IMG/VR virus record: IMGVR_UViG_3300036715_002002 | Location: 1 to 34,376 of that record | Strand: one strand, 5' to 3' | Source: a virus | DNA length: 34,376 bases | Shown here: positions 1-30,332 of the stretch, piece by piece | Numbering within the stretch: position 1 is the first letter of the stretch | Layout of the letters: every line of letters begins with the position of its first letter | The notes under the pieces: generated by a model | Database searches by the model: none | The model's input: only the letters and a program-made list of their open reading frames with translations | What the model was told of the DNA's origin: nothing | Made by a program: the position numbers and the translations under genes

Positions 1-456
1 GGTATAGATCAAGGCTTGTCTGATATTCAAAAAGCACAAAATGAGCAATATGATGAGTACAAGAAAAACTTACCTTTCATGCAAAACCAAATGCAAGAGC
101 GGCTTACTAAGCAAGCTAATACAGGTATTGCTCAAGGTCAGCATCAAAGCGAAGAGAAGCAAAGTGCACGTGGTTTAGGTTATGGTGGTCTTAACGAAGG
201 GATGAAGCAACAAATAGCATCTCAAGGCCAACAACAATTAGCTGGGCAATTATCCGGTGCTAATAAAGGCTTGCTTGATATGGGCACGCAGATCCAACAA
301 GGCGGTATGCAAACAGGTCTTGGTATTCAAGGTCAAATGCAGCAAATGCAAAATTCTATCTATCAACAACAATTAGCACGTCAGCAAGCTAATAATCAGA
401 TCGGTGGTTCGGCTATGGGATTGCTTGGTAGTGCCGGTTTAATGGCGGGAGCATAA
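1..456 (+). CDS. Internal virion / DNA-ejection protein, C-terminal 151 residues (gene continues from 34186)
   Basis: This is the 3' part of a gene opened by the window ends. Frame 1 is open from base 1. After one copy of the 11-nt terminal overlap is removed, it continues the frame that starts at the ATG at 34186, giving 211 residues in total. The part here is very rich in Gln, Gly and Met, with a long Q-rich helical stretch and a Gly/Ala-rich hydrophobic tail. That composition is typical of podovirus ejection proteins, which leave the capsid with the DNA, but I recognise no named family. The next gene starts 1 nt after the stop. The assignment rests on composition and on its place downstream of the tail nozzle gene. 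Confidence 0.7.
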   Translation, partial: GIDQGLSDIQKAQNEQYDEYKKNLPFMQNQMQERLTKQANTGIAQGQHQSEEKQSARGLGYGGLNEGMKQQIASQGQQQLAGQLSGANKGLLDMGTQIQQGGMQTGLGIQGQMQQMQNSIYQQQLARQQANNQIGGSAMGLLGSAGLMAGA

Positions 457-457
457 T

Positions 458-1090
458 ATGAGTGAAGTTTCAAAATTCTTAGGCTTTGATCAACAAACAC
501 CTACGCCTCAATTCACACCACTTGATGCTCAAACTCAAGGTTTGATAAAAGAACAAGCGGCAAGCGCTATGAGACCAAGTAATCAATTTGGTAATGAGCT
601 TAATCAAGGTATTAACCAAAGAGTCGGTCAAATTGGCCAATTTGGTAACACTGATATGGCAAACACTGGGATGACTCAAGGGATGCATGAAGCTTTACGT
701 AATGCTTACTCAGGGCAAACAGGTGATGCTTTAGATAGGATTAAGTTTACTAATTCAATTGAAGGTGATCAAAAAAAAGCACAAGCTTTAAGACTTGCTT
801 CACAAAATGCTATGCAACAACAACAAACTAGGACTAATTATTTTCAAACTTTGACAGATAGCTATAATCAAATGGAAGCGCAAAGAGCACAGTTTGTTTC
901 TGCAATTTCTGGTTTAGGTCAGCATGCAATGGGCACTTATGCTGGCGCTAGAAGCAAAAATGTATCACCTCATTCAAGCCCTGATATGTCGATGAATCAA
1001 AATATGTTTAATGGGAATAGTTACCAAATGGGCGGACAACCTCAACAACCTAGTTACTTAGGTGATTATAATTTCGGGGGTAATCAATAA
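458..1090 (+). CDS. Gln/Asn-rich internal virion protein
   Basis: A 210-residue protein with very high Gln, Asn, Met and Gly content and no membrane segment or catalytic motif that I can see. The middle (about residues 90-150) looks helical, and the C-terminus is low-complexity and rich in Gln, Asn, Gly and Pro. It sits second in a run of five similar genes with 1-2 nt spacing or overlap (its TAA shares the A of the next ATG). I infer a DNA-ejection or inner-core protein by position and composition. The exact role is unknown. Confidence 0.65.
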   Translation: MSEVSKFLGFDQQTPTPQFTPLDAQTQGLIKEQAASAMRPSNQFGNELNQGINQRVGQIGQFGNTDMANTGMTQGMHEALRNAYSGQTGDALDRIKFTNSIEGDQKKAQALRLASQNAMQQQQTRTNYFQTLTDSYNQMEAQRAQFVSAISGLGQHAMGTYAGARSKNVSPHSSPDMSMNQNMFNGNSYQMGGQPQQPSYLGDYNFGGNQ

Positions 1091-2220
1091 TGGGACCTAA
1101 CTTTGAAGCAATGACAGGCATGGCTAACGGTATTAAAGAGGGCATGCTTGCTTATCAAACTCAGAAGCAAATTCAGCGCACTCAAGACATGCAAGGATTA
1201 TTACAAGGTGTTGAGACCGATCCTCAAACTGGTCAGTTGAAATATACACCACAGAAACAAGCTGAAATAGATTTTAACAAACAAAAACTTGCTAGTGATT
1301 CAGCGGAGCTTCAAAGAAAATCTTTATTAGCTCAACCTAACTCAGAAGAGTCATTACGCAGGATAAAATTAGCTGAGAATTTAACAGGTTCAAAATTACC
1401 AGAAGGAATGTCAGGTATTGATGTTAATGAATCACAAGGATTGCTTGGCTCTAAATTAAGATCAGATACTTCGCTAATTGAAAGAATGTATGCGGCTGAT
1501 AACGCTAAAGAGTTAGCGCAGTATAAAGCAAGTCTTAATAATGGTGCCGGTGGTTTTGGTAATACTATTGGAATGCGTGCAGAGAAAAACGCTTTTAATA
1601 TGCATCAGGCAGCACTTAAAGCAATTTCGAATGATAAACCAACACAAGCTATGCTTCAATCTTATCAAAACTTAGGTAATGCACTTTCAAACATTGATAC
1701 TAACCCAAGTCCGCAAGATTTTCATGAATTACAACAAGCTGTAAGATCTAACATTGGTCTAAAAGGTGCCGGTGGTGTAAGTGAAAGAAATGCGACTTAT
1801 TTAACTTCTCTTGGTGTAAAAAAAGATGAAGCTATTCAATTTTTAACTGGGAAAATAGCTGATGTAAGCCAAACAAGCCCTGAACTAATGAATGCTATTA
1901 AACATCTTGCTCAAAATGAAATGGAAAATAAGAAACAACAAGCATTTTCTGAACTTGAGAAAATTCATACTGGTTATGCGCCTATATATCAGGGCTCTAC
2001 TATGCAACAATACGGTAGTCAGTATCCACAGTCTTTTGAAAGTGCTTATGAGCAAGCAAAAGGACAATTCGGGCCAACTGAATTACAAAAAACTCAACAA
2101 GGATTAATACCAAAAGCATTAGATCCAGAACATCAGCAAGCGGTAGATTGGGCTAAACAAAATCTTAATGGTCCTAATGCTGAAAAAGCAAAAACAATAT
2201 TAAAAATGAATGGGATGTAA
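1090..2220 (+). CDS. Internal virion / ejection protein
   Basis: A 376-residue, largely helical, Gln-rich protein (helical heptads around residues 20-110). The start overlaps the previous stop by 1 nt and the following gene starts 2 nt after its stop, so it is translated from the same message. No enzyme motif is visible; in particular I see no transglycosylase Glu motif. The third place in the ejection-protein run and the size resemble the mid-sized ejected proteins of P22-like and T7-like phages. The call is by context. Confidence 0.6.
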   Translation: MGPNFEAMTGMANGIKEGMLAYQTQKQIQRTQDMQGLLQGVETDPQTGQLKYTPQKQAEIDFNKQKLASDSAELQRKSLLAQPNSEESLRRIKLAENLTGSKLPEGMSGIDVNESQGLLGSKLRSDTSLIERMYAADNAKELAQYKASLNNGAGGFGNTIGMRAEKNAFNMHQAALKAISNDKPTQAMLQSYQNLGNALSNIDTNPSPQDFHELQQAVRSNIGLKGAGGVSERNATYLTSLGVKKDEAIQFLTGKIADVSQTSPELMNAIKHLAQNEMENKKQQAFSELEKIHTGYAPIYQGSTMQQYGSQYPQSFESAYEQAKGQFGPTELQKTQQGLIPKALDPEHQQAVDWAKQNLNGPNAEKAKTILKMNGM

Positions 2221-2222
2221 TT

Positions 2223-3746
2223 ATGGCTTTTAATCCCGATGAATATATTAAGAAAAATATTAAAAATTTTGATCCTGATGAATATATTAAAAATAATAGT
2301 GTCAAAGAAGAGCAAGGTATTTTTAGTAAAGCGCTAAGTGAAGTAGCAAATAGACCTCAAGAGTCGCTTAAAGAAGCGCAAACGCCTGGTTATGGGCAAG
2401 GTTTAGTTAAAGCGAGTATGGAAGCTTTACCAATGGCAGGTTCTATTGCCGGTGCCGGTTTAGGTTTAGCTTCACCTATTCCAGGTGGCGCAATAGCAGG
2501 TGCCGGTTTAGGAAGTGCCCTTGGTGAGTCAGCAAGACAAATTGGTAATAAGTATTTACTAGATGAAAAGCCCGAAGGAGTTTCAGAAATTGCAAAACAA
2601 GGGTTACTTGGCGCAGGCGCAGAAATGGGCGGTCAAGCTGTAGGTAAAGCAGTTAATAAAGGTATCGAGTCAATTACTCCTGCCTTACAAAAAGGTGGTG
2701 AGTGGTTAACTGGTATTCCAAAGAAAGCAATTGAGACTTATCAAAAGTATAGACCAGAAGTTGAGGAGTTATTTAAAAAGCATGAAGGTAACTTTGCAAC
2801 AATGGCCGATGAAGCACGTGCTAATACAAACAATGCTTTGTTTGCAAAAAAAGCGGAGCTTAATAAAATTATTGATTCATCATTAAAGAATTCGGATGCA
2901 ATGGTTAATGTTATTCCAATTCAAAGAGCTTTAATTGATGCTCAAACACATTTAGATCCGCTTGTACCAACTGATAAAAAACAAATTGATCAAATTAATG
3001 ATTTATTAACTCAAATTAAAAATGGAACCCAGAACGGAAAAGAAATGCCTGTTCAGAGAGCTAATCGTTTTAAGGCATCATTTCAAGAACTAGCTAGTCA
3101 ATCTTATGCAAAACCAGGTGAGATATATAATTTAGGTAGTGATGCGGCAAGAGCGGCAAAGAAAGCGGCAAGTGAAATTAGAACACAAATAAATCAAGCT
3201 CTGCCTGATCTTGCAGAAGCAAATAATACTCATGCAAAACTTCATGACTTAGAAGACTTGATGAATTCGAATTTAATTGCCGAAGGCAAACCAGAAGCGG
3301 CCTTACTTGCTGCAGGCAGTGGTGCAAACCAAAGAAACGCAAAGGTCTTAAAAGATTTAGGTAAAATTATTGATCATGATGCTTTAGGCGAAGCTGAGAA
3401 AATAAGTGCAGCAAGATATTTTGGCGATCCTTCATTAAGTCCAGTTGACGTGACTGGTAAAGCCTTAGAACGTACTAGCAAAGCAAAAGGTATAGGCGCG
3501 GCTATTGGTTCAGGTCTTGGCTTTCTTTCAGGCGGAGCAATCCCAGCTATGGCAGGTGGCGCAATAGGACGTGAAGCCGGTGGTTACATCGCAAGTCCAC
3601 TTTCATTAAAAGGTGGTATTATAGCAAATGACTTAATTAATCAAGGTGCCAATGTTTTAAACAGAGAATTGCCTCAAATTACTCGACCATTAACTCAAGG
3701 TGGCGCTAGAATTGGGCGTGGGCTTTTAAATAAAGGTGTAAAGTAA
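2223..3746 (+). CDS. Large internal virion protein with glycine-zipper segment
   Basis: A 507-residue protein. The N-terminus carries two copies of a short motif, FNPDEYI near residue 3 and FDPDEYI near residue 16; short Asp-rich DEYI-type repeats of this kind are familiar from phage inner-core proteins. Residues about 60-105 form a Gly/Ala-rich hydrophobic glycine-zipper stretch that could insert in membranes. A long charged helical region follows (about 170-390), then a second Gly/Ala-rich hydrophobic stretch (about 425-455). The next gene repeats the first Gly-rich module. This fits a protein that forms a channel across the host envelope during DNA ejection, which is inference from composition and order. 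Confidence 0.65.
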   Translation: MAFNPDEYIKKNIKNFDPDEYIKNNSVKEEQGIFSKALSEVANRPQESLKEAQTPGYGQGLVKASMEALPMAGSIAGAGLGLASPIPGGAIAGAGLGSALGESARQIGNKYLLDEKPEGVSEIAKQGLLGAGAEMGGQAVGKAVNKGIESITPALQKGGEWLTGIPKKAIETYQKYRPEVEELFKKHEGNFATMADEARANTNNALFAKKAELNKIIDSSLKNSDAMVNVIPIQRALIDAQTHLDPLVPTDKKQIDQINDLLTQIKNGTQNGKEMPVQRANRFKASFQELASQSYAKPGEIYNLGSDAARAAKKAASEIRTQINQALPDLAEANNTHAKLHDLEDLMNSNLIAEGKPEAALLAAGSGANQRNAKVLKDLGKIIDHDALGEAEKISAARYFGDPSLSPVDVTGKALERTSKAKGIGAAIGSGLGFLSGGAIPAMAGGAIGREAGGYIASPLSLKGGIIANDLINQGANVLNRELPQITRPLTQGGARIGRGLLNKGVK

Positions 3747-5116
3747 TGGCAAATGATCAAATTAATCAGCTTAACAATTTGTTACCACCTGATTTATTTA
3801 ACGAGTGGTTATCAAGTCGTAGTAAACAACAAGATCAATTAACAGGCGGTAGAGATAAGCTTGGGATAATACCTCAACCCTTAAGTGATGAACAGAAGTC
3901 AGGACAAGGTTTGATTAAATCAGGTCTTGAATCATTACCGCAATTAGGAAGTGTTGCCGGTGGCGCTCTTGGTATGGGTTTAGGCGGTGCCGGTGCAATA
4001 CCTGCGGCTTCAATGGGTGCGGCTGCAGGCGAAGGTCTTAAGCAATTAGGTGAACAATATTTATTTGATAAAAGCCCTGATATGTCGATGCAAGAAAGAA
4101 TACATGCTATTGCAGGTCAAGGTTTAGCCGGTGGTATGACTGAGTTACCAGGGCAAGGTTTTGGGATGCTTGGTAGCGCTATAGGGCAAGTAGAGAAGCC
4201 TGCTTGGATGAAAGTCATTCAAGGTGAGGGCAAAGCTACTCCTAAAGTAGAGGCCGATGATATTGGTATGTATCCGATTAGAGAAACAAACCCTTCTGTC
4301 CCTATTGAGCAAGCAAGTAAAGAACAGCCTTTTGATTTATTTGAAGCGCAAAAAAGTGAAAAGCAATTTAAAGATCCAATGAAGCAAGCATTTGAAAACG
4401 AAATGCAGAAAAGAAAAGAACCTGCTTCTATTACAAGAATTGGTGCAGAAAACCCAGGGATACAAGCTGAGCGTCCAGATGTGCTTAAAGAGATAGAAGC
4501 ACGATACCCTGATAAAGCAAAAGAGATAAATGAACTATCAAACGAAGCATCAAAACAAAATAAAGCTTATATTTATGATCCAAATAAAATGCCAATACCT
4601 ATTCCTAATCCAAACTTAAATACTAATATGTTAGGTGAAGCGCGTATTAATGATGCGAATTTTGATGATCCTTTAAGATGGATGGATTCAAAATATGGAG
4701 TGACTAAGTCTTGGATGGAAAAGAATGCTGACAAACCTATTACTATTAATACATCAAGTGATTTAATAGCACGTGCTGATTACGCGGCACTTATTAATCC
4801 AAAGTCAAAAGTTAATTTATACGACACGACTGATAATGATCACATAAATAGAATGATATTCCCTGCTAACCCATCAAGCGCAAGAATAAATAAAGCTTAT
4901 GAAAGGTTAAAAGACGCAGGTGTAAATGTAGAATTAATCAAGCCAACAAAACAAGATATTATTGATAATCTTGCCGCTCGCGGTAAAGATGTAAGTTATG
5001 TCGAGCTAGCAACGGGCACGTCTTTAGATCAACTAATAGCCGATGGCACGATTAAATTAAGAACTGATTTAAAATCAGTTAAACCTTCACCTTTTAAATT
5101 ACTTCCTAAGAAATAA
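3746..5116 (+). CDS. Internal virion protein, glycine-zipper module plus barrel-like C-terminal domain
   Basis: A 456-residue protein starting on the last base of the previous stop. Residues about 50-140 repeat the module of the preceding protein: a GQGLIKSGLESLP-type lead-in, a Gly/Ala zipper, then KQLGEQYLFDKSP. The C-terminal third (about 320-440) has a different, globular look, with alternating strands and helices and the run ITINTSSDLIARADY. This resembles part of the barrel of radical-SAM-type proteins, but the whole protein contains no cysteine, so it cannot bind a 4Fe-4S cluster. Probably an ejected protein with an added globular domain of unknown job. Confidence 0.6.
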   Translation: MANDQINQLNNLLPPDLFNEWLSSRSKQQDQLTGGRDKLGIIPQPLSDEQKSGQGLIKSGLESLPQLGSVAGGALGMGLGGAGAIPAASMGAAAGEGLKQLGEQYLFDKSPDMSMQERIHAIAGQGLAGGMTELPGQGFGMLGSAIGQVEKPAWMKVIQGEGKATPKVEADDIGMYPIRETNPSVPIEQASKEQPFDLFEAQKSEKQFKDPMKQAFENEMQKRKEPASITRIGAENPGIQAERPDVLKEIEARYPDKAKEINELSNEASKQNKAYIYDPNKMPIPIPNPNLNTNMLGEARINDANFDDPLRWMDSKYGVTKSWMEKNADKPITINTSSDLIARADYAALINPKSKVNLYDTTDNDHINRMIFPANPSSARINKAYERLKDAGVNVELIKPTKQDIIDNLAARGKDVSYVELATGTSLDQLIADGTIKLRTDLKSVKPSPFKLLPKK

Positions 5117-5370
5117 TGAAATTGATGAATCAAACAGGTAGTTTACTAAAATGGCAATTAACCTTAGCAGAGACTTTGTCTTTCGGTATCACAATTGCAG
5201 TGTTTGTGTATTTCATCACTAATAATTTTGTTTCTGTCGGTGACGGAGTGTTACTTAAGCAGAGAGTTGACAGAGTAGAAAGTGAATTGTCTAATTTAAG
5301 AAACTCTTTGGCTCAAATTGGCTCTGACATATCTTACATCAGAGGCCGTCTTGAACCAAAGAATAAGTAA
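5116..5370 (+). CDS. Small membrane protein with C-terminal coiled coil
   Basis: An 84-residue protein. One hydrophobic segment lies at about residues 18-40, followed by a heptad-like helix (about 48-78) with regular Leu/Val/Ile spacing. The start overlaps the preceding stop by 1 nt. An N-terminal anchor followed by a coiled coil is seen in i-spanins, in DUF2730-like phage proteins and in some holin accessory proteins. The genes after it are also small and membrane-directed, so a lysis-cassette role is likely. I cannot decide between holin accessory and spanin-like. Confidence 0.55.
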   Translation: MKLMNQTGSLLKWQLTLAETLSFGITIAVFVYFITNNFVSVGDGVLLKQRVDRVESELSNLRNSLAQIGSDISYIRGRLEPKNK

Positions 5371-5415
5371 CAATGCATAAACATGCAAGTTTTGCATAAA
5401 ACGAAGGAGTATTTA

Positions 5416-5565
5416 ATGGATAAAATATTAAAGTACGTAAATATAAAAGCGATATTAGTTGATCTACTTATTCCATATCTCGAAAAATTTGTAGCCGACA
5501 CAGCGAATCCTTACGACGACAAACTTATAGTCTGGTTTAAAGAGTGGGCTGAGAAAAACGTATAA
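5416..5565 (+). CDS. Small hypothetical protein, 49 residues
   Basis: I start this at the ATG at 5416 because AAGGAG lies 6 nt upstream; an upstream in-frame ATG at 5383 has no ribosome site and sits in a short hairpin (5383-5397). The protein is a mixed amphipathic helix followed by an acidic-aromatic end (KLIVWFKEWAEKN). Its stop overlaps the start of the next gene by 1 nt. It may belong to the lysis cluster. No function is recognised. Confidence 0.5.
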   Translation: MDKILKYVNIKAILVDLLIPYLEKFVADTANPYDDKLIVWFKEWAEKNV

Positions 5566-5807
5566 TGAATTTTTTAATTGCATTATTAGAACAGATTTTT
5601 ATTACTGTTTTAAAGTGGCTCCTTGAAAGTGGGGGCCGCTTTCTTTATGAAAAAGTTAACCAAATAATTGATGAACACGATAAGAAAAAAATTAGAGAAG
5701 ACAATTTAAAGAGGTATAAAGATGCTCTCGACAATAACTTGCAATCTGAAGAGCGTAGACAGAGGCAGCAAGATCTTATTAATGGCACTGATCGTCGTCA
5801 CAAGTAA
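5565..5807 (+). CDS. Membrane-anchored coiled-coil protein, i-spanin-like
   Basis: An 80-residue protein with an N-terminal hydrophobic segment (about residues 3-20) followed by a strongly charged helix (about 35-80) rich in Lys, Asp, Glu, Arg and Gln. This is the layout of Rz-type inner-membrane spanins. Its last 86 nt overlap, in another frame, the start of a lipoprotein gene. That nesting is the hallmark of Rz/Rz1 pairs, which fuse inner and outer membranes in the last step of lysis of Gram-negative hosts. The sequence shows topology and nesting; the function is inferred. Confidence 0.5.
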   Translation: MNFLIALLEQIFITVLKWLLESGGRFLYEKVNQIIDEHDKKKIREDNLKRYKDALDNNLQSEERRQRQQDLINGTDRRHK

Positions 5808-6057
5808 TTTAATAAGTTGTAAATCTGAACAGATAAGACCTTTCCCAACCCACGAAATATATGAAGTAATACGTGGAGAGAAAGGCTGTACTGTTTATAA
5901 AGTTATTCGTGAAAACCCTATTACAGTTGATGGGGGTACGGACCTTGATGAAGCTCACTGCCCACGTTCAATTTCTGGCTTTCATTACCAAGAAGTGCCC
6001 GAGGTATTTGATTGGATTAGGGATGCTCAAGAGTTAGCGAAGAAAAATTGCAATTAA
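5722..6057 (+). CDS. Lipoprotein, candidate o-spanin
   Basis: A 111-residue protein. After a basic n-region (Lys17), a hydrophobic stretch (about residues 18-30) ends in a LISC lipobox with Cys33 as the lipidated residue, leaving a mature part of about 79 residues with three more cysteines. A GAGGT ribosome site lies 7-8 nt upstream of this start, inside the previous gene. The overlap with a membrane-anchored coiled-coil gene suggests an outer-membrane spanin. It is longer than lambda Rz1 and not proline-rich, so a phage superinfection-exclusion lipoprotein is a fair alternative. Confidence 0.5.
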   Translation: MLSTITCNLKSVDRGSKILLMALIVVTSNLISCKSEQIRPFPTHEIYEVIRGEKGCTVYKVIRENPITVDGGTDLDEAHCPRSISGFHYQEVPEVFDWIRDAQELAKKNCN

Positions 6058-6806
6058 TATTAGGTGACTGCTTAGAAAAATTAAAAGATATACCAGACAA
6101 GTCTATAGATTTTGTTCTTACAGATCCGCCTTATAATCTTACACATTGTAAATGGGATGAACTATTAGATTTTAATGAAGTATTTTTTGAATTAAAAAGA
6201 ATCATTAAAGATAATGGAGTAATAGCATTATTTGGCACTGAGCCTTTTTCTTCAAAATTAAGATCTATAGGCCAAGATATTTATAAATATGATTGGTATT
6301 GGAAGAAGTGTAAATCTTTAGGCGCAAACTTTTGTCATGCTAAAAATTCACCTATTAAAACAATCGAAACAATATCAATTTTTTCTCATGGTAAAATTAA
6401 TCATATAGGGAAAACTAAGAATAGAATGAATTATAATCCACAAGGATTGATTGTATGCAAACCTATTCATTCTCATCATAAATTTGGGAAAATTTCTAGT
6501 TTTAGAAAATATATAGAAAGACCAAGTCATAAAAAATATAAAAGAACCATAACAAATTATCCTGATCAAATTATTGATTTTAAATTTAGCACAGAAGAGC
6601 GTAAAAATAGATATCATCCAACCCAAAAACCAGTAGCTTTACTTGAGTACTTAATCAAAACATATACACTCGAAGGTGAGACTGTTTTAGACTTTACTAT
6701 GGGTTCGGGTTCAACTGGAGTTGCCGCAAAAAATTTAAATCGTAAATTTCTCGGTATCGAGAAAGATGTTCAATTTTTTAAAATAGCTAAAAACAGAATA
6801 GGTTAA
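6048..6806 (+). CDS. DNA N6-adenine methyltransferase (beta-type order), orphan
   Basis: A 252-residue protein. The catalytic motif TDPPYN is at residues 25-30, and the SAM-binding motif DFTMGSGSTG comes late, at 215-224, preceded by HPTQKP at 190-195. Motif IV before motif I is the beta-class order of site-specific DNA adenine methyltransferases. The start is TTG, overlapping the previous gene by 10 nt, with only a weak ribosome site. No restriction endonuclease gene lies nearby, so it probably protects phage DNA against host restriction. It is the last gene of the rightward late block. Confidence 0.85.
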   Translation: MQLILGDCLEKLKDIPDKSIDFVLTDPPYNLTHCKWDELLDFNEVFFELKRIIKDNGVIALFGTEPFSSKLRSIGQDIYKYDWYWKKCKSLGANFCHAKNSPIKTIETISIFSHGKINHIGKTKNRMNYNPQGLIVCKPIHSHHKFGKISSFRKYIERPSHKKYKRTITNYPDQIIDFKFSTEERKNRYHPTQKPVALLEYLIKTYTLEGETVLDFTMGSGSTGVAAKNLNRKFLGIEKDVQFFKIAKNRIG

Positions 6807-9826: not shown

Positions 9827-10033
9827 TCAAACCCACGTTTCTACGATACACTTATCGTCGTTTGGATGCGGCATTAGTTTCACTAAACCATATATATTCA
9901 GCATTATTTCTTCGATTATATTATATTCTGTCGCATGAATAAAGTTACGTGTTGCCAAATTATCCACAAACAATCTTGCTACGTAAGCATACGGAAAATC
10001 ACTCGCGTTAAAATAAACTACCCACATTTTCAT
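9827..10033 (-). CDS. Conserved small phage protein, 68 residues
   Basis: The sequence starts MKMWVVYFNASDFPYAYVAR and ends DDKCIVETWV. This pattern (VVYNASDFPY, a YVARLF segment, and a final I-V-E-W) is one I know from many uncharacterised short phage proteins. The ATG overlaps the previous stop (ATGA). No function is established. Confidence 0.55.
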   Translation of the reverse strand: MKMWVVYFNASDFPYAYVARLFVDNLATRNFIHATEYNIIEEIMLNIYGLVKLMPHPNDDKCIVETWV

Positions 10034-10317
10034 TTGAATTTTATCTCGCTTACATATTGTGAAAGCTCTGCAATTAACGATGTTATATTTTTAGTATAGC
10101 TACCGGATTTCTCGACTAGTTGTGTTTCTTCAATAGGCTCATCTTTTACTATTTCATATTCACCGGCATAAGCGGAATTAAGACTTGAACCACTATAGAA
10201 ATAATAATATGATCCTGTTAAGTTACCCGAAGGTGTAATACCGTCAACTATATCACCAGCTTTGTTATCGCCCTTGTCTATAAGTAATTTGATTTTCATA
10301 AACACCCACTTTTTCAT
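10030..10317 (-). CDS. Tandem-duplicated small protein, copy 2
   Basis: A 95-residue protein nearly identical in its first half to the gene directly upstream. The shared part (KIKLLIDKGDNKAGDIVDG, then YYFYSGSSLNSAYAGEYEIV) looks like a compact beta-rich, SH3-like domain. The C-terminal third is a short helix ending SEIKFK. I use the ATG in the ATGA overlap. An inner ATG at 10299, preceded by GTGGG and matching the start of the other copy, is an equally good start. Function unknown. Confidence 0.55.
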   Translation of the reverse strand: MKKWVFMKIKLLIDKGDNKAGDIVDGITPSGNLTGSYYYFYSGSSLNSAYAGEYEIVKDEPIEETQLVEKSGSYTKNITSLIAELSQYVSEIKFK

Positions 10318-10590
10318 TTGAATTTTATCTCGCTGACTATCAATGAAAGATCCCTAATAAGATCAATCATGTTTTTCTGATAGCTATCAAATTTCTCGAC
10401 TGGTTTTGGCTCTTCGATAGGCTCATCTTTTACTATTTCATATTCACCAGTATAAGCAGAAGTAAGATTTGATCCACTATAGAAATAATACCATGATCCT
10501 GTTAAGTTATCCGAAGGTGTAATACCGTCAACTATATCACCAGCTTTGTTATCGCCCTTGTCTATAAGTAATTTGATTTTCATAAACACT
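10137..10590. repeat. Direct tandem duplication, 284-nt period
   Basis: Bases 10137-10306 align without gaps to 10421-10590 with 9 mismatches in 170 nt by hand alignment. The last 80 nt (10227-10306 against 10511-10590) are identical. The repeat spans the first half of both paralogous genes and the sequence around their starts, which indicates a recent duplication or recent gene conversion. Confidence 0.85.
10314..10583 (-). CDS. Tandem-duplicated small protein, copy 1
   Basis: An 89-residue paralogue of the next gene downstream. I start it at the ATG at 10583 because this overlaps the previous stop (ATGA) and gives a protein starting MKIKLLIDKG; a GTG two codons earlier has no support. The N-terminal half is almost unchanged between copies while the linker and C-terminal helix differ, so the duplicated domain appears constrained and the tail free. 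Function unknown. Confidence 0.55.
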   Translation of the reverse strand: MKIKLLIDKGDNKAGDIVDGITPSDNLTGSWYYFYSGSNLTSAYTGEYEIVKDEPIEEPKPVEKFDSYQKNMIDLIRDLSLIVSEIKFK

Positions 10591-15463: not shown

Positions 15464-15515
15464 TCAACTTTTGCAATTCTGTGTTTCTGATTTAATCAAG
15501 AAAGCGAAGCTATAA
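15369..15515 (+). CDS. Ribbon-helix-helix (Arc/CopG-like) DNA-binding protein, 48 residues
   Basis: This short frame begins inside the zinc-finger gene in another frame, 8-9 nt after an AAAGGA ribosome site. The product shows the RHH pattern: a basic N-terminal strand (EARLNLRLLESDK), helix A (KIKLKKLAKKEKRT) and helix B starting ISQLLQFCVSDLIKK. Proteins of this size bind operators as dimers. Its place next to divergent operons and dyad repeats makes it a good candidate early repressor. It ends 20 nt inside the convergent cytidylyltransferase gene. Confidence 0.6.
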   Translation: MKTKEARLNLRLLESDKIKLKKLAKKEKRTISQLLQFCVSDLIKKAKL

Positions 15516-15900
15516 TCTTACTTCTCAAATTAGAAGTGCTTACGTTATGTAAGCGCTCACAGTAATGTATTTCGATATGAGAAAGACCTTTACCGGTAAA
15601 CTCTTCACCTACATAATCAGAGCCTAAAAATCTAATATTAGGCTTAAGCAATAATAAAAGCTGATATAACTCATCTTCCGTCTCATAAGGTATGACTTCA
15701 TCTACATAGCTTAAGCCCCTAAGCCTTATATACCGTTCTGAGCTTGTCTCGATTGGCTTATTTTTTTCTGGTCTCTCAAGTTTTGGATTAACATGCAAAG
15801 CACAGATCAAATAATCACAATTTTCTCTTGCTTCTTTTAGCATCACTAAATGCCCAGCATGGCAAAGATCAAAAGCCGAAGCTACAAAGCCTATTTTCAT
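15496..15900 (-). CDS. Cytidylyltransferase-family nucleotidyltransferase (TagD-like)
   Basis: A 134-residue protein, the usual length for glycerol-3-phosphate cytidylyltransferase. FDLCHAGHL (residues 10-18) is the HxGH nucleotide-binding motif near the N-terminus, and the C-terminal VSTSNLRSKI corresponds to the second signature (normally RTxGISTS). The expected reaction is CTP plus a phosphorylated small alcohol or sugar to give a CDP-linked product. I cannot fix the substrate; ADP-heptose- or FAD-synthesising relatives share the fold. It is co-transcribed with a small upstream gene (ATGA overlap). It may work with the phage glycosyltransferase in surface modification. Confidence 0.7.
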   Translation of the reverse strand: MKIGFVASAFDLCHAGHLVMLKEARENCDYLICALHVNPKLERPEKNKPIETSSERYIRLRGLSYVDEVIPYETEDELYQLLLLLKPNIRFLGSDYVGEEFTGKGLSHIEIHYCERLHNVSTSNLRSKIIASLS

Positions 15901-16082: not shown

Positions 16083-16149
16083 AAATAATCCTTTTTTTTA
16101 TAACATTTTATATATCTTTTACATGCAATTATTTTCTACACTTTTAGTT
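16083..16149. promoter_or_regulatory. AT-rich divergent promoter region
   Basis: A short, very AT-rich spacer between the leftward RHH/cytidylyltransferase pair and the rightward terminase genes. Leftward TTGCAT with TTATAA (19 nt apart) and rightward TATATA-like hexamers are possible promoter parts. No single promoter is convincing, but the start of the late block has to lie here or inside the neighbouring genes. Confidence 0.35.
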
Positions 16150-16641
16150 ATGGCAAGAAAAAAAGCAGTAGCAAGAGCAGGACATAATTATACCCCAGAA
16201 AAAGGCCAAGAGGTCTTAGCTTTAGCAAAAGAAGGCAAGACTAATAAGCAAATTGCTGAGCGCATGGGCTTAACAACAAGAACTATTGAAAACTGGACAA
16301 CTCAAAAAGACGATCTCATCAAAGAAATTAAACTCGCAAAAGAGCCAACTGATAACACAGTTGAGGCAACACTTCTGCAAAAAGCTCTTGGTTACAAGTT
16401 TGAAACGATCAAGCTTTTCTTTGATGCAAAAACAGGCACAGTAATAGAGCACAAATATACTGAGTTTGTTCAACCAGACACTACAAGCATAATCTTTTGG
16501 TTAAAAAACAGACAACCAGAAAAATATCGCGATGTGAAACGAATCAACGTAGAAAACGATAACGATAAGCAAGCCACTCAAGCCATTTCAGATCTAGGTT
16601 CTAAGATTGTTGATGCATTAAGCAAGTGGACAAATGAGTAA
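16150..16641 (+). CDS. terS: Terminase small subunit
   Basis: A 163-residue protein. An HTH lies at about residues 20-55 (EVLALAKEGKTNKQIAERMG, then TTRTIENW), which recognises the packaging site. The middle and end match small-terminase features: ATLLQKALGYKFE, a beta hairpin, and PDTTSIIFWLKNRQPEKYRD. I prefer the ATG at 16150, followed by a basic N-terminus; an ATG at 16123 would add nine hydrophobic residues. Neither has a ribosome site. It acts with the large subunit to start DNA packaging, and its end overlaps the ATPase gene by 8 nt. Confidence 0.85.
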   Translation: MARKKAVARAGHNYTPEKGQEVLALAKEGKTNKQIAERMGLTTRTIENWTTQKDDLIKEIKLAKEPTDNTVEATLLQKALGYKFETIKLFFDAKTGTVIEHKYTEFVQPDTTSIIFWLKNRQPEKYRDVKRINVENDNDKQATQAISDLGSKIVDALSKWTNE

Positions 16642-17338
16642 TATAGTCTTACCAGGTGATATTGAAGCGATGAAAAGCGCAGCAATGAAAAGCTTATTTG
16701 TCTTTGCGTCCTGCTTTCTAGGCTATAAAGACATATCACCTTACACACATAAATCAATGATCCAAGCATTAGAGAGTAATGTGACTCGAAAGCTTATTTG
16801 CGTGCCACGTGGTAGCTTAAAGTCATCTCTTGGGTGTGTGGCTTTCCCTATTTGGCTTTTATTAATTAATCCAAACTTAAGGATCTTAATAGATAGCGAA
16901 TTGTTTACTAACTCAGCAACTTTTTTGCGTGAAATTAAAGGGCATCTCTTATCTCAAGAGATAACTAGTATCTTTGGTGAGTTTAAAACAAAGACTTGGA
17001 ATGAGGATGAGATAATAGTTAGACAAAGAACTAAGATCTTAAAAGAACCATCAATTACTGTCGGGGGAGTCGGCACAACAAGAGTTGGGCAGCATTATGA
17101 CTACATAATAGGCGATGACTACAACTCACCTAAAAACTCTAATACGCCTGATAAGTCACAAAAAGTTATCGATCATTATAAATACAATCTTTCAATTCTA
17201 GAACCCGAAGGGACTTACGTAATTATTGGCACTCGTTATAGTGAAAATGATTTAATAGGTTACATATTAAGAGAGCAATTAAAAATATCAGGCTTCCCAC
17301 AAACTAAACTTTACACAATAGAGGAAGAAAAATCATGA
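16634..17338 (+). CDS. terL: Terminase large subunit, ATPase half
   Basis: A 234-residue protein containing only the N-terminal motor domain. Walker A is VPRGSLKSS (57-65), Walker B with catalytic acidic residues is YDYIIGDD (155-162), and the coupling motif is VIIGTRY (196-202). It ends soon after this motif (EEEKS, stop), where the linker to the nuclease domain begins in ordinary enzymes of about 490 residues. The nuclease domain is encoded separately at 18464. The stop overlaps the next start (ATGA). The motifs are intact, so this should power DNA translocation with the nuclease chain as a partner. Confidence 0.85.
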   Translation: MSNIVLPGDIEAMKSAAMKSLFVFASCFLGYKDISPYTHKSMIQALESNVTRKLICVPRGSLKSSLGCVAFPIWLLLINPNLRILIDSELFTNSATFLREIKGHLLSQEITSIFGEFKTKTWNEDEIIVRQRTKILKEPSITVGGVGTTRVGQHYDYIIGDDYNSPKNSNTPDKSQKVIDHYKYNLSILEPEGTYVIIGTRYSENDLIGYILREQLKISGFPQTKLYTIEEEKS

Positions 17339-17673
17339 CTCAAGATCAAGCGGCTTTTATCGGAGCTACACAAATTATTATAAATGCACTAGGTGCATCT
17401 GTATTTCCTTACTTATTTCAAAGTGGTCCTGGCAGTATTTCTGGACAACTTAAATTAGTAACTGGAACCACTGTTTGTATTGTCCCAAATGCAAAAAGTG
17501 GAGCAAGCATTGGTGGCGCGACTGCAATTACCACAATCCAAGGTTACTATCTAGCTACAACTGAGATGTATCCTTGGTATGGGCCTGCAAGTTTTTACTT
17601 AGCAACAACAAGCGCAACGGCTGTTATCTCTGCGGTAATTAATTACACTGCAGGCGGAGCAAGTTTAGCATAA
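17335..17673 (+). CDS. Small probable structural protein inserted within terminase locus
   Basis: A 112-residue protein, rich in Ala, Gly, Thr, Ser and beta-branched residues, with a predicted beta-rich body (LKLVTGTTVCIVPNA, TTIQGYYLATTEMYPWYGPA, then TSATAVISAVINYTAGG). The composition resembles the head protein at 25079 and phage decoration or head-fibre proteins. GAGGAAG lies about 8 nt before the ATG, a stronger ribosome site than those of its neighbours. Expression level therefore may exceed that of the terminase chains, as expected of a virion component. Confidence 0.55.
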   Translation: MTQDQAAFIGATQIIINALGASVFPYLFQSGPGSISGQLKLVTGTTVCIVPNAKSGASIGGATAITTIQGYYLATTEMYPWYGPASFYLATTSATAVISAVINYTAGGASLA

Positions 17674-18464
17674 TGAATGACTCAATAATTGGTAAGCCTA
17701 AATACTTTGACTTAGATACCTATCTAAATGCTGTAGAAAGCATGGTCTGTGCTGATGAAATAAAGTTTGCACTTACTATGCTTGATAACTTACCAGGGTA
17801 TTATCGAGACAACTATCCCGAGCGTGCCGAGACTATTCGCGGGCTTATATATGAACAATGCATGACTGTTCAAGATTACATTAACGATACAAGTGAATCT
17901 ATAGAACAGTCAGAAATTCATCATAAGCAAGTTATTACTAAACAATGGAAAGAACCTCACTTCTCACCTCGTGGGGTTTTAATTATAGATTTAGTACGTG
18001 ACCTTAACAAGCAAGGCTTCACAGTAAACATCATAGAGCTTGGGCCTTATAACTATTGGCTTCCGATGGGTTTACAAGATGAGGGGTTAGATTTTATCTA
18101 TACTCCAATTTCAGTAAACCCAAATATCAAGTGCCCTATTAAGACAAAAACAAAATCAGATAAACCAATTAAAGACATATTTATATGCTTTGAAGTTATA
18201 GAACATCTTTGGAATGAAGACGAGATAGTCCATTACTTTTATAAAACTCAAATTGATCCTGATTTTATTATCATTAGCACACCAAAGTATACTTGTGGTG
18301 GTGGTTTACCAAACTGGGATACTAGAACATTAGGACATATCAGAACGTGGACACCTTCTGAGCTTACTAATTACTGTCGTAAACATTGGCCTAAACTTAA
18401 TTGGTATTTTGTTGATTCAGCAATGATGATATCAATTGGTTCAAAAGAAAAAGTGACAACCTAA
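17673..18464 (+). CDS. Class I SAM-methyltransferase-like protein inserted within terminase locus
   Basis: A 263-residue protein. A helical N-terminal part (1-95) precedes a Rossmann-like part with IELGPYNYWLP (121-131) in the SAM-binding position, CFEVIEHLW (172-180) as post-motif II, STPKYTCGGG (202-211) and LGHIRTWTP (220-228). This order matches small-molecule, lipid or protein methyltransferases rather than DNA adenine enzymes. The normal G-x-G-x-G of motif I is reduced (G-P-Y-N-Y), so activity is uncertain. It overlaps its neighbours by 1 nt on both sides. Target unknown. Confidence 0.65.
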   Translation: MNDSIIGKPKYFDLDTYLNAVESMVCADEIKFALTMLDNLPGYYRDNYPERAETIRGLIYEQCMTVQDYINDTSESIEQSEIHHKQVITKQWKEPHFSPRGVLIIDLVRDLNKQGFTVNIIELGPYNYWLPMGLQDEGLDFIYTPISVNPNIKCPIKTKTKSDKPIKDIFICFEVIEHLWNEDEIVHYFYKTQIDPDFIIISTPKYTCGGGLPNWDTRTLGHIRTWTPSELTNYCRKHWPKLNWYFVDSAMMISIGSKEKVTT

Positions 18465-19246
18465 TGCAGTGGCAAGTTGTTTATAAGAAAGCATATAATG
18501 AAGACGGATCTCTTTTTTTTCCAGAAAAGCTGACTCATGCTTTCTTAGAGCGACAAAAACGTGAACAAGGTTCTTACATATTTTCTAATCAGTACTTAAA
18601 TGAAATTATCCCTCTTGATATGCAATCATTTAAGAAAGAGTGGTTTCACTATTATGAAACAATACCAAAGATTCATCATAACTTCTGTTATATCGACCCT
18701 GCTATTTCACAAGCTGATACCGCTGACTTTACAGGTGTGACCGTAATTGCCGTAGATAGTGAAAATAGGTGGTTTGTAAGATTCGCTAAGCGATACAAGA
18801 TAACACCAACACAACTTATAAGTCTTATTTTTGAAATACAGAAAAATTTTAATTGCATGGCAATTGGTATTGAAGAAGTCGCATTTCAAAAAGCTATTAG
18901 TTATTTTCTAGCTGATGAAATGAAGCGAAGGAATATATTTTTACCGATCAAAGGCATTAAGCCACCGACTGATAAAACAAAAGAGATGAGAATACTTTCA
19001 CTAGTCCCTAGATTTGAGTGGAATAGGGTTTTCTTAAATAAAGGACTAACTGATTTAGAACTTGAGCTTATGATGTTTCCACGTGGTGCTCATGATGATT
19101 TAATCGACTCACTTGCAAGTTGTGATTTTATAGCATTCCCACCTAGCCCAGAAAAACAATGGGAAAAGCCATTAGCGCCTAATCATCCAGACTATGAAGC
19201 TTATTATTTACATAAATTAAGAAATAAAAACCAAGACGATAATTAA
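18464..19246 (+). CDS. terL: Terminase large subunit, nuclease half
   Basis: A 260-residue protein containing the RNase H-like terminase nuclease domain. YIDPAISQADTADFTG puts the first catalytic Asp at 78, IGIEEVAFQKA supplies the acidic pair at 137-138, and RGAHDDLIDSLA supplies Asp211/212 and Asp215. The linker typical of full-length enzymes (QWQVVYKKAYNEDGSLFFPE) forms its N-terminus, directly continuing where the ATPase chain at 16634 stopped. There is no Walker motif here. It has almost no ribosome site and starts on the last base of the methyltransferase stop, so it depends on translational coupling. It should cut concatemers at the start and end of packaging. Confidence 0.85.
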   Translation: MQWQVVYKKAYNEDGSLFFPEKLTHAFLERQKREQGSYIFSNQYLNEIIPLDMQSFKKEWFHYYETIPKIHHNFCYIDPAISQADTADFTGVTVIAVDSENRWFVRFAKRYKITPTQLISLIFEIQKNFNCMAIGIEEVAFQKAISYFLADEMKRRNIFLPIKGIKPPTDKTKEMRILSLVPRFEWNRVFLNKGLTDLELELMMFPRGAHDDLIDSLASCDFIAFPPSPEKQWEKPLAPNHPDYEAYYLHKLRNKNQDDN

Positions 19247-19874: not shown

Positions 19875-19901
19875 TCAGTTTTAGCTAGGGAAGTGGCACT
19901 A

Positions 19902-22028
19902 ATGCAGTTATCTGATATAACTAAAAAACTTTTCGGATCAAAAAAAGATGCCCAAGATTTAGAGCCTATAAAAGAGATATCAGATCAGTCACCTGATGAG
20001 ATAAAGCTTGTTGAGTATATCAAAGAAAAGATAGATTCGACAAGACAAACTAACTCTCGTATCGCTATTGAAGGCGTTTACATGTGTAACGTCGCCTACC
20101 TTCTTGGGTTTGACGGAGTTTACTATGACACTGCTTACAGACAATTTAGAAATATCGATCCTAAACGAAAACTAAGTCGCAATAGATATAAAGTTAATAA
20201 GATCTTACCTACGATTCAAAATAGATTAGCAAGGCTTACGCAAAACCCACCACGATATGAAGTAAGACCTAACTCAAATTCGACAGAAGACAAAGATGCT
20301 TGTCGTTTGGGTTTAGAAGTCATTACAGATATTTTTGAAAAACAAAGATTTAATCAAAAACGTCAAGATGCTCTTATGATGGCAATGCAAGGTGGGCATG
20401 CTTATATTCAAACAGTTTGGGACCCAAATTTAGGTAAACCTATGATTGATCCTGATACCGGAGAGTTTAATGGTTATGAAGGCGATGTTAAACTTGAGGT
20501 TTTAAATTGTCTTGATGTGTTTCCCGATCCTGCAGCAAAGAATATAGACGATGCTCAATATTTAATTAAAGCAAAAACTAGAAAGCTTGAGTACTTTAGA
20601 TCAAGATATCCTGATCGAGGTAATTTAGTTAAAGAAGAGTCAACTTGGCTTTTGTCTGCGACTTATGACATGAAGACTAACTCACTAACAAGTGTTGGAA
20701 TAGTTGGTGCTCAAACTCATGATCAAATGAAGAACAGTGCTATTGAAATTGTCTATTATGAAAAGCGCAGTAAAGATCATCCTAATGGTCGCATGGTAGT
20801 TACTGCTAATGGTGTATTACTCGAAGACAAAGAATTACCAGTCGGTGAGTTTGATATTGTCAAAATAGATGATATGATTATCGGTGGTCGGTATAATAGT
20901 GAAGCAATCATCACTCATTTAAGACCTATTCAAGATCAATACAATGTGAGTCGTACTAAGATGGCTGATTGGGTGAGAAAGATGCTTGCTGGCAAGTATC
21001 TAGTGGCAAAAGGCGCAGGGCTTGGCCAAGAATCAATTAATAACGATAGTGGTGAAGTTGTTGAGTATAACGTGGTCCCAAATGCACCGCCACCTACGGC
21101 TATGACTATTCCACAGATACCGCCTTATATGTTTAAAGAAATTGAAAACTTAAACAGCGAGTTTGATTTTGTTTCTGGTATTAATGAAGTGAGTCGAGGT
21201 GAGCTCCCAAGTGCTTCTATACCTGCTAGCGGTATGGCTTTCTTACAAGAGCAAGATCAAACAAGAATTGGTGTCCAAACTTCTAGAAACGAAACTGCTT
21301 ATGCTAGAATTGGCACGCTTATCTTAAAGTATGTAGGCAAGAACTATAAAATACCACGTATGATTAAAACTGCAGGTGATGGTTTAGGTTACTGTGTTAA
21401 AGACTTTATGGGTGATCAGTTACTTGATAACCATGACGTTATAGTTATTGAAGGATCAACTGTCCCACAATCTAAAGTCTTACGTAATCAAGAAATTCTT
21501 TCTCGTTATCAAATGGGATTAATGGGCAATCCTCAAGATCCTAAAGTTATTTCTCATGTATTAAAAATGACAGAGTTTGGAGACGCTAATGAAATATGGA
21601 AGAAACAAGCATTAGATGAAGCTCAAGTTAAGCGTGTGCTTAAAGCTATTGAGACAAGTGACCAAATATTATTACGACAAAACATGAATGAGTTTGATAA
21701 TCATGCAGTTCATTTAGAAATGATGAACGAATATAGATTAGAGGATAAGTTTAATGGTTTAGATGATAAGCAAAAATCTTTGTTCTTTTGGGTTATGGAA
21801 TGGAGAATGAATGCAGCGACAAACATTCTAAACCCTGGATTACAGCAAACTCAAAACATGGCTGAACATGGTGTTAATCAAATGCAACAAGGCCAAGTTC
21901 CTATGACTGATAATCAAGGCGATATGCCATTACCGCAAAGTGAACAACAAACACCGCCTTCTCAATTACCAAATGTAAATCAAATGACTCAATCAATTCA
22001 CCAACAAAATGCAGGTCAAGGAGTTTAG
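19902..22028 (+). CDS. Portal protein, P22-like
   Basis: A 708-residue protein. I start at the ATG at 19902 because AGGGAA is 9 nt upstream; an in-frame GTG at 19893 abuts that site and is too close. The sequence has the shape of P22-type portals: a helical N-terminus with KVNKILPTIQNRLARLTQNPPRYEVRP, a wing/clip region with VLNCLDVFPDPAAKNIDDA, a long stem and helical crown region, and a Gln-rich tail. The length is close to P22 gp1 (725). Twelve copies would form the ring through which DNA enters and leaves and to which the terminase binds. Confidence 0.85.
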   Translation: MQLSDITKKLFGSKKDAQDLEPIKEISDQSPDEIKLVEYIKEKIDSTRQTNSRIAIEGVYMCNVAYLLGFDGVYYDTAYRQFRNIDPKRKLSRNRYKVNKILPTIQNRLARLTQNPPRYEVRPNSNSTEDKDACRLGLEVITDIFEKQRFNQKRQDALMMAMQGGHAYIQTVWDPNLGKPMIDPDTGEFNGYEGDVKLEVLNCLDVFPDPAAKNIDDAQYLIKAKTRKLEYFRSRYPDRGNLVKEESTWLLSATYDMKTNSLTSVGIVGAQTHDQMKNSAIEIVYYEKRSKDHPNGRMVVTANGVLLEDKELPVGEFDIVKIDDMIIGGRYNSEAIITHLRPIQDQYNVSRTKMADWVRKMLAGKYLVAKGAGLGQESINNDSGEVVEYNVVPNAPPPTAMTIPQIPPYMFKEIENLNSEFDFVSGINEVSRGELPSASIPASGMAFLQEQDQTRIGVQTSRNETAYARIGTLILKYVGKNYKIPRMIKTAGDGLGYCVKDFMGDQLLDNHDVIVIEGSTVPQSKVLRNQEILSRYQMGLMGNPQDPKVISHVLKMTEFGDANEIWKKQALDEAQVKRVLKAIETSDQILLRQNMNEFDNHAVHLEMMNEYRLEDKFNGLDDKQKSLFFWVMEWRMNAATNILNPGLQQTQNMAEHGVNQMQQGQVPMTDNQGDMPLPQSEQQTPPSQLPNVNQMTQSIHQQNAGQGV

Positions 22029-28118: not shown

Positions 28119-30332
28119 ATGGCCTTCCCTACAATTACACTCGCATTGATTGCGAAAAATGAAGAAAAGAATATCAATAGACTACTTGATTCAGTCGCTG
28201 GATGCTTTGATCAGATCGTGTTAGTTGATACTGGTTCAACTGATAAGACAAAAGAAATTGGTTTATCACGTGGGTGTGAAGTTTATGACTTCACATGGGT
28301 GAATTCTTTTTGTAAGGCTCGCAATTTTGCATTTTCAAAAGCTACTTGTGATTATATTTGTTGGTTAGATCTCGATGATTGCTTAAGTGACAAAGATGCT
28401 TTCATTCAGTGGAAAAACTATGCAATGGAGTTTGCTGATTGTTGGTTTAATACTTACAATTATGCTTTAGATAAAGAAAAGAAACCTATTATTTCATTTG
28501 TAAGAGAGAGAGTTTTTAAGCGCTCACTTGATCCAGTATGGCAATATGATTTACATGAAGGTATTATTATAAAGCCTGAATGGTCTAGAGACTATGCTGT
28601 TTCATGGTCTGTAAATCACATGAGAGATGAGCAAGATGTAATTGCTGATAAGTCACGTAATATAAAGATTCTTGATGATATCAAAGCTCGTGATGGGAAG
28701 TTACCAACAAGACTTAAGTTTTATTATGGCAAAGAGCTTTATGAAAATGGACAACCTCAAAAAGCAATATGGGCTTTTGAGGAGTTTTTAAAATGTGAAG
28801 ACATCGAGTTTCATGACAAGGTTTTAGCATATCAGTATGCGGCTTATTCAGCTTTTCAAAGTGCTCAAAATTTAAAACCAGAGTTACGAGAAGAAATCAT
28901 GTCTCTATTAACTCATGCTTTAAACTTTGCAATTGAAGGTATTAAGCTTGAACCGAGTCGTGCTGAGTTTTTTGTTACTTGTGGTGATATCTATTTATTC
29001 CAAGGTCAAATTCATAAAGCTATGGGCTTTTATGGAGCGGCAAAGGTTTGTATTAATCCAAAAGAGATGAGTGGTGCTTATGAAGGTGCAGTTTACTCTT
29101 TTATAGATTGCTATGGTAAAGTGCCAAGCCTTCAACTTGCTAAATGTTTATTCAATATTGGAAAGCTTGAGCAAGCAAAACTTGAAGCAAAAGAATGCTT
29201 TGATAAGTATCAAGATAATGAAGCAAAAGCGATGCTAGAAGAAATAACAAAAATTGAAAGCTTAACTAAGCTTGATAATAACCAAGTTCAGACTAATGAC
29301 ATTGTTATTACATGCCCACCACAGACCGCTTATCCTTTTGATGAAGAGCTTTATAAAACTAAAGGTCTTGGTGGTAGCGAGACAGCTTTAATTCAAATAG
29401 CAAGGCATTTACACACATTAACTGGTAAGCCTGTTAAAGTGTTTAACATGAGAGAAGACACTCTTATTGCTGAAAGTGGTGTAGAGTATATTTCAAACAA
29501 GCATTTAAATAAGTATATGAGTGAAAACTTACCACTTATTCATATTGCCTGGAGACATAACATAAAGCTAACAAGAGCTAAGACCTATTTGTGGTGTCAT
29601 GATCTAACTACTCAGACAGTTGAGAGTGTTCAAAACTTTGATAAGATTATTTGCTTATCTGAGTTTCATAAGAATTATGTTATGGCAAAACAGAATGTAT
29701 TACCTGAAAAGATATTCTTATCTCGTAATGGTATTGATCCAGTTAAATTTGATTTTATTAGAAAGCCAAAGAACAAGAATAAGATTGTTTGGATGAGTAG
29801 TCCTGACAGAGGGCTAGAACAATGCATTTTAATTGTTGATGAATTATTAAAAGTAAGACCAGAAGTTGAGCTTCATGTTTATTATGGTTTAGATAATCTT
29901 TATAAATACGGCTTAGGAGCTCTTGCTGATAAATTAAAAGCAATGATCGAAGAAAGATCTTGGATTAAGTATCATGGGTTTACTGAGCAATCTAAAATGT
30001 ATTATGATGTGAGTGATGCTATTATTTGGTTACACCCATGTAATTTTATTGAAACATTTTGCATCACTGGACTTGAGATGCTCGCACTAGGTGTTTTCCC
30101 TATTACAAGAAAGCTTGGAGCTCTTGCTAATACTTTAGCCGATGCTGAAAGTAAAGGCCAAGCTATTATGCTTGATCATAATGGTTCAAGTGAAGAAGGA
30201 AAAGCTGATTATGTAGATCAGTGTCGTTTAGTTTTAAATAATAGATTATGGGAAAATGTTAATCTTGATTTAGAAAAGCATGATTGGAAAACTATTGCTA
30301 AAGAGTGGATCTCTGAAATGGGCTTAGAATGA
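28119..30332 (+). CDS. Bifunctional glycosyltransferase: GT2, TPR and GT4-like domains
   Basis: A 737-residue protein. Residues 1-170 are a GT-A family 2 domain: TLALIAKNEEKNINRLLDSV at the start, VDTGSTD (36-42) and the metal-binding DLDD (84-87). Residues about 200-370 are helical TPR-like repeats. Residues about 395-730 form a GT-B domain with GLGGSETALIQIARHL (416-431), SRNGID (535-540) and WMSSPDRGLEQCI. The first part with TPRs resembles SunS-like and other phage GT2 proteins. Both domains keep their donor-site motifs, so it could add two sugars in turn. Position among tail genes suggests virion protein glycosylation, though host envelope modification is possible. Confidence 0.8.
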   Translation: MAFPTITLALIAKNEEKNINRLLDSVAGCFDQIVLVDTGSTDKTKEIGLSRGCEVYDFTWVNSFCKARNFAFSKATCDYICWLDLDDCLSDKDAFIQWKNYAMEFADCWFNTYNYALDKEKKPIISFVRERVFKRSLDPVWQYDLHEGIIIKPEWSRDYAVSWSVNHMRDEQDVIADKSRNIKILDDIKARDGKLPTRLKFYYGKELYENGQPQKAIWAFEEFLKCEDIEFHDKVLAYQYAAYSAFQSAQNLKPELREEIMSLLTHALNFAIEGIKLEPSRAEFFVTCGDIYLFQGQIHKAMGFYGAAKVCINPKEMSGAYEGAVYSFIDCYGKVPSLQLAKCLFNIGKLEQAKLEAKECFDKYQDNEAKAMLEEITKIESLTKLDNNQVQTNDIVITCPPQTAYPFDEELYKTKGLGGSETALIQIARHLHTLTGKPVKVFNMREDTLIAESGVEYISNKHLNKYMSENLPLIHIAWRHNIKLTRAKTYLWCHDLTTQTVESVQNFDKIICLSEFHKNYVMAKQNVLPEKIFLSRNGIDPVKFDFIRKPKNKNKIVWMSSPDRGLEQCILIVDELLKVRPEVELHVYYGLDNLYKYGLGALADKLKAMIEERSWIKYHGFTEQSKMYYDVSDAIIWLHPCNFIETFCITGLEMLALGVFPITRKLGALANTLADAESKGQAIMLDHNGSSEEGKADYVDQCRLVLNNRLWENVNLDLEKHDWKTIAKEWISEMGLE

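Follow-up and report, generated by a model that had tools for sequence, protein, structure and literature searches.

Here, we analysed a 34,376-base stretch of viral DNA (IMG/VR record IMGVR_UViG_3300036715_002002, referred to as 'the window' in the following), for which the host group is given as bacteria or archaea. In the window, the large terminase subunit (TerL) is encoded by two genes, one for an ATPase chain and one for a nuclease chain, and two further genes lie between them (Table 1). An original prediction had proposed such a two-gene TerL, and its layout of open reading frames (ORFs), its ATGA and TAATG junctions, its motif positions and its total of 494 residues turned out to be exactly as claimed. 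Chain 1 (234 amino acids) carries the Walker A motif VPRGSLKSS (residues 57-65), the Walker B motif YDYIIGDD (155-162) and the coupling motif VIIGTRY (196-202). Chain 2 (260 amino acids) carries the predicted catalytic residues of the nuclease, of which D78, E137, D212 and D215 are invariant in an alignment of 57 sequences. The gene order TerS (terminase small subunit) - TerL - portal is kept: the last 8 nucleotides of the TerS gene are shared with the beginning of the ATPase gene, and two small genes separate the nuclease gene from the portal gene.

Chain 1 covers positions 291-464 of the phrog_38 profile and chain 2 positions 468-713, without loss or duplication, indicating that the two genes together make up one complete TerL; a second TerL was not found on the window contig. 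Models obtained with AlphaFold2 (AF2) were confident (predicted local distance difference test, pLDDT, of 93 for chain 1 and 91 for chain 2), and in the model chain 1 ends with a short helix followed by a disordered, unconserved tail. Structural alignment matched chain 1, as an ASCE ATPase core, to residues 2-243 of the TerL of PhiV-1 (VIA Z 22.9) and to residues 69-305 of T4 gp17 (VIA Z 18.6), and also to P74-26 4-212 and D6E 9-190. Since a sequence search of chain 2 against the PDB gave no match, structure comparison was used for this chain, and it identified an RNase H-like nuclease with conserved acidic residues, close to the TerL nucleases of G20c, D6E and P22 (VIA Z 15-16). A broad nuclease profile offered no stretch conserved enough for scanning. 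Two PHROG families annotated as 'terminase large subunit', phrog_4758 (243 amino acids) and phrog_5573 (250 amino acids), match chain 1 and chain 2, respectively, almost end to end, so that similar separate halves are probably already present, unremarked, in this database; we found no earlier description of their gene order, cargo or lid position.

Table 1 Features of the split TerL locus in the window (positions in the 34,376-base stretch; aa, amino acids)
Feature	Coordinates	Strand	Basis
TerS (terminase small subunit)	16123..16641	+	phrog_309, E=2.3e-31
TerL chain 1, ASCE ATPase core only, 234 aa	16634..17338	+	phrog_38, AF2, structural alignment
ATGA overlap, 112-aa gene start / ATPase stop	17335..17338	+	sequence
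112-aa insert gene, beta-rich family	17335..17673	+	relatives between halves of split loci
TAATG stop-start overlap, 112-aa gene / 263-aa gene	17671..17675	+	sequence
263-aa insert gene, methyltransferase-like by motif	17673..18464	+	weak UbiG match, E=0.08
TAATG stop-start overlap coupling nuclease chain to preceding gene	18462..18466	+	sequence
TerL chain 2, last ATPase strand + lid + linker + RNase H-like nuclease, 260 aa	18464..19246	+	
Chain-2 residues 1-49, last core strand + lid subdomain, ~D6E TerL 191-231	18464..18610	+	
RNase H-like nuclease domain, chain-2 residues 71-226	18674..19141	+	
P22-type portal	19893..22028	+	PF16510, E=2.9e-25

Where is the TerL chain cut? Fused relatives read GTRW-x16-F-x-V..QA..DGSLLFPERLT without interruption. 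In the split group, chain 1 ends 21-45 residues past GTRY with a tail that is not conserved, and chain 2 begins as M-x-W-x-V-x-Y-x-KA..DGSLLFPERLT at the residue matching the fused relatives; the cut falls at the identical residue throughout the group. Structural alignment equates chain-2 residues 50-225 with D6E 232-415 and with T4 from residue 360 onward, which leaves D6E 191-231 on chain 2. In D6E, residues Y213, M216 and R224 belong to the lid, and residues 230-241 form the linker that leads to the nuclease (PMC5727402). Because chain 1 stops at D6E 190 and the D6E lid residues fall on chain 2, the cut lies between the ATPase core and the lid and not in the ATPase/nuclease linker. The 'intact ATPase domain' originally ascribed to the first gene thus has to be corrected: chain 1 is the core only, and the lid subdomain resides on the nuclease chain, where register, sequence motif and predicted helices (residues 25-35 and 37-45) identify it. 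The mean top-residue frequency in split chain 2 is 0.67 for the lid versus 0.63 for the nuclease domain, with L28, G36, Q43 and N46 fixed in the lid segment, and W3 is present in every one of the 35 aligned split sequences, whereas the fused sequences vary at this position. In the isolated model of chain 2, the N-terminal strand has no partner, consistent with its docking on chain 1.

Both halves, as single sequences and as profiles, served as queries against viral contigs, and about 130 loci were recovered, many of which duplicated a contig already represented. When ORFs defined from stop to stop were scored against the profiles of the two halves, they separated into two clean groups: 40 non-redundant contigs (window included) carry the halves as separate ORFs, 34 more distant homologues are fused, and none is mixed. 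The nuclease scores of the close split relatives all exceeded 300 bits, and the fused distant ones reached up to 233 bits. We found no fused TerL inside the split clade; about 15 further contigs have the nuclease chain as an ORF of its own and end before the ATPase. The split group forms one side of a branch that received support of 99/99 in the nuclease tree and 100/100 in the ATPase tree and was present in 100% of the bootstrap trees. With one strongly supported branch in both trees, the split most simply arose once and without reversal in this sample, and its recurrence in 40 non-redundant contigs excludes chance and assembly error. All 18 long split genomes contain exactly two phrog_38 pieces abutting at profile position ~465, and a complete TerL was found in none of them. 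Both halves are under strong purifying selection: between the window and its relative L002, the ratio of nonsynonymous to synonymous substitutions (dN/dS) is about 0.06 for the ATPase and about 0.02 for the nuclease. The predicted two-gene TerL is hence ancestral and stable.

Beyond these contigs, a host search with both half profiles against 84,980 prokaryote genomes revealed no relative, and named phages and plasmids offered only fused or distantly related TerL proteins with at most 38% identity among the matches listed. BK070047 and OL774570 were considered as split candidates and rejected, as they encode single ORFs of 550-565 amino acids. Insertions inside TerL genes were also seen. In L104 (1673-3400), a separate nuclease chain contains an intein-like Hint domain inside the catalytic HDD..DA motif, so that a TerL that is already split has a further insertion within its active-site motif. 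The outgroup contig L132 (593-3127) encodes a fused TerL whose ATPase part is interrupted by a LAGLIDADG intein.

The gap between the ATPase and nuclease genes ranges from 224 to 6346 base pairs (bp; median 1745, standard deviation 1792, n=40), and the nuclease-portal gap of the same loci is near-constant (407-1412 bp, standard deviation 188, n=38). Each insert holds 1-11 genes that differ between phages, 166 in total, of which 163 are co-oriented; these calls follow a simple longest-ORF path, so that small genes are approximate. In 37 of the 40 loci, the nuclease gene starts within -60 to +15 nucleotides of the preceding stop codon, whatever gene comes before it. How strongly the content varies is illustrated by L003, whose nuclease chain is 78% identical to that of the window while the inserts are unlike each other (112 and 263 amino acids in the window versus ~770, 61 and 57). 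The gap is thus an insertion hot spot for cargo, as had been predicted, although the break itself lies between core and lid instead of at the presumed domain boundary.

The 112-residue, beta-rich protein belongs to a family of small proteins encoded in 37 of the 40 split loci, in each case in the gap between the ATPase and nuclease genes; fused loci lack it. It has no PHROG, Pfam or clear PDB match, and two scans for the family outside these phages gave nothing new. In contig L083 (646-960), a gene of this family stands directly downstream of the nuclease chain and not upstream. The family of the 263-residue protein occurs in eight of the 40 inserts and is located elsewhere in other genomes; the methyltransferase likeness predicted for it is weakly backed, by a UbiG match at E=0.08 and no match in Pfam. 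Proteins of more than 450 amino acids are encoded in 16 inserts, and some of them match a virion structural PHROG family. Glycosyltransferases occur in the inserts of L007 and L108, together with a family in five loci that has weak matches, and the insert of L007 also holds a sugar dehydratase and an ECF-like sigma factor. In L044 (2164-2640) and L095 (7396-7890), a gene for an endonuclease with HNH_3 and AP2 domains stands directly before the nuclease-chain gene, suggesting a possible trace of homing into terL.

Elsewhere in the window, a 737-residue protein with glycosyltransferase family 2 and group 1 domains is encoded amid structural genes (28119-30332), and a cytidylyltransferase-like gene lies on the minus strand (15496-15900). 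Together they suggest glycan modification by the phage. The window further contains a DNA methylase gene (6048-6806; N6_N4_Mtase, E=1.3e-31) and, on the minus strand, two neighbouring near-identical genes for proteins of ~95 and 91 amino acids (10030-10589), a recent tandem duplication.

We consider it highly probable that the locus encodes a genuine TerL made of two co-oriented, translationally coupled polypeptides, which goes back to a single ancestral break and has a cargo site between its parts. An ancestral fused terL would have been broken once, between ATPase core and lid and without loss of residues, and one or more new genes would then have come to lie between the two parts. The gap may have been opened by an HNH homing endonuclease or by recombination bringing in a gene of the 112-residue type; both are possible. 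A composite, non-covalent motor is the likeliest reading, given that conservation of the chain-2 lid equals that of the nuclease; with the chains working separately, decay of the lid would be expected. Most likely, strand and lid of chain 2 associate with chain 1 and complete the ATPase domain. The lid would then relay ATP-driven movement to the nuclease half over a non-covalent interface, and the nuclease would cut the concatemer. Both chains would be read from one string of genes with stop-start coupling, and the site between them would be tolerated as an insertion point of the late operon that gathers the small beta-rich protein, fibre-like proteins and glycan-modifying enzymes. The physical association of the two chains, their stoichiometry, the packaging activity of the pair and the role of the cargo are inferred. 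It also appears likely, though with somewhat less confidence than the two-chain TerL itself, that the packaging motor is obligately heteromeric, with the core and its lever, the lid, on different chains and force passing through a non-covalent interface, and that the gene boundary has remained a conserved cargo-capture site throughout the radiation of the clade.

Could the two genes instead be exons, which an intron, another RNA-level process or intein-type joining unites into a single-chain TerL? Such an arrangement is known from herpesviruses, where UL16 and UL17 lie between the two exons of UL15 and the intervening ORFs also vary (PMC3079670), and inteins do occur in TerL proteins of the wider group (L132, L104 and MW202554.1). 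The inserts described here, however, span 0.2-6.3 kb and are densely filled with same-strand genes that join by stop-start overlaps at both ends. Chain 2 has a start codon of its own at the split, the tail of chain 1 is not conserved, and the chain ends carry no intein sequence. A group I or II intron was not detected with Rfam in the window, where only a chance match appeared at E<=1, nor in 14 relatives, so that the splicing out of the insert named as a counter-scenario to the prediction finds no support at sequence level. We regard joining into one chain as very improbable. Even further from consideration is a recent or degenerate disruption, be it an error of sequencing, a chimeric assembly or a decaying terL complemented by a helper TerL from another location; only the unusual layout speaks for it. 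The comparative data, i.e. 40 independent contigs, a single deep origin, strong purifying selection and the lack of another TerL on the window and in 18 of 18 long genomes, reject this explanation, as the original prediction had argued from the neat overlaps, and leave it next to no probability.

More serious is the question whether the halves still form one motor. The packaging ATPase of phi29 works without TerL nuclease cutting, and the ATPase of the split clade might likewise package alone, with the nuclease as a free enzyme, e.g. a resolvase or an independent terminase endonuclease. Separate genes permit independent expression, and the RNase H fold is near RuvC-type resolvases (Z ~9-10). 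Several observations weigh against the two-chain TerL. The distance matrices of ATPase and nuclease are only moderately correlated (Mantel r 0.46-0.56, with 0 of 2000 permutations higher; fused groups r 0.35-0.92), which would also suit a free nuclease. Between the window and L002, the ATPase gene and the 112-residue gene form a diverged patch with a synonymous distance (dS) of 2.1 versus 0.6-0.9 around it; across 16600-17650, nucleotide identity is 69-81% in the ATPase gene and 58-59% in the 112-residue gene, with flanks mostly at 78-94%. This patch likely reflects recombination separating the two TerL halves and points, at least for this pair, to a possible exchange of chain 1 independently of chain 2. 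Furthermore, the rigid-body alignment starts at chain-2 residue 50, so that the lid is identified by register, motif and helices without superposition on a PDB lid, and all members of the clade are uncultivated. Free reassortment of the halves was nevertheless rejected, since the trees differ at moderate support only and approximately unbiased (AU) tests keep congruence (p 0.13 and 0.44). The position of the lid speaks against a free nuclease: chain 1 is lidless, and the last ATPase strand and the lid are kept on chain 2 at full conservation. Loss of the lid would be expected once a nuclease works freely, and in cluster AY phages the nuclease chain, which stands alone, has indeed lost it. The gene order between TerS and portal is moreover always the same, and in contrast to a phi29-type ATPase without functional nuclease, all 40 loci have a nuclease gene nearby with catalytic residues invariant in the aligned members. 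Hence, we judge two independently working enzymes to be unlikely and favour the two-chain TerL.

A two-chain TerL bears on models of DNA packaging in which the stroke is carried by a lid joined covalently to the core, such as the electrostatic model of T4, the linker of Sf6 and the trans-finger of P74-26/D6E (PMC5727402, PMC7617512). Core and lid on separate chains make the need for covalent continuity directly testable and offer a ready two-component system for reconstitution. TerL is also a hallmark gene for virus classification, and single-gene searches may miss the split form or misread it as a pseudogene or as two partial genes. The hot spot would in addition represent a storage place of exchangeable fibre-like and glycan-modifying genes in this virus group.

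How does the split clade compare to known systems? With the TerL of tailed phages (phrog_38; PhiV-1/T7 gp19, T4 gp17, D6E, P74-26 and Sf6), it shares the ASCE core motifs, the lid, the acidic residues of the RNase H-like fold and the order TerS-TerL-portal. Those proteins are single chains, whereas all 40 loci of the clade have two ORFs, cut between core and lid and with one to eleven genes in the gap. Herpesvirus UL15 is likewise interrupted in the genome by other, varying genes, but its parts are spliced and the inner genes are antisense, while those of the clade are co-oriented and show no sign of splicing. The Manatee Spring podovirus MW202554.1 (L023, 3929-6466) has two 'terminase large subunit' genes, the first with an intein-like insert, and a gene for 62 amino acids between them; its cut follows the lid and immediately precedes the RNase H strand, and it stands outside the clade as an independent split. 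A description of a core-lid split or of a cargo site inside terL was not found in the literature, with most subscription journals outside our coverage. A split TerL as such is already known from the Arthrobacter cluster AY phages, in which the ATPase and nuclease domains are encoded in consecutive genes (PMC11920828). Phage BillyTP of this cluster (PP978841) also has its TerL as two genes between TerS and portal. By eye, however, its 359-residue ATPase chain keeps a lid-like segment and its 198-residue chain starts at the RNase H fold, and the genes are consecutive without cargo, whereas those of the window clade are neither adjacent nor cut after the lid. The split in cluster AY is thus an independent event with another split point, and it is the cut between core and lid, together with the cargo, that sets the TerL described here apart from this precedent.

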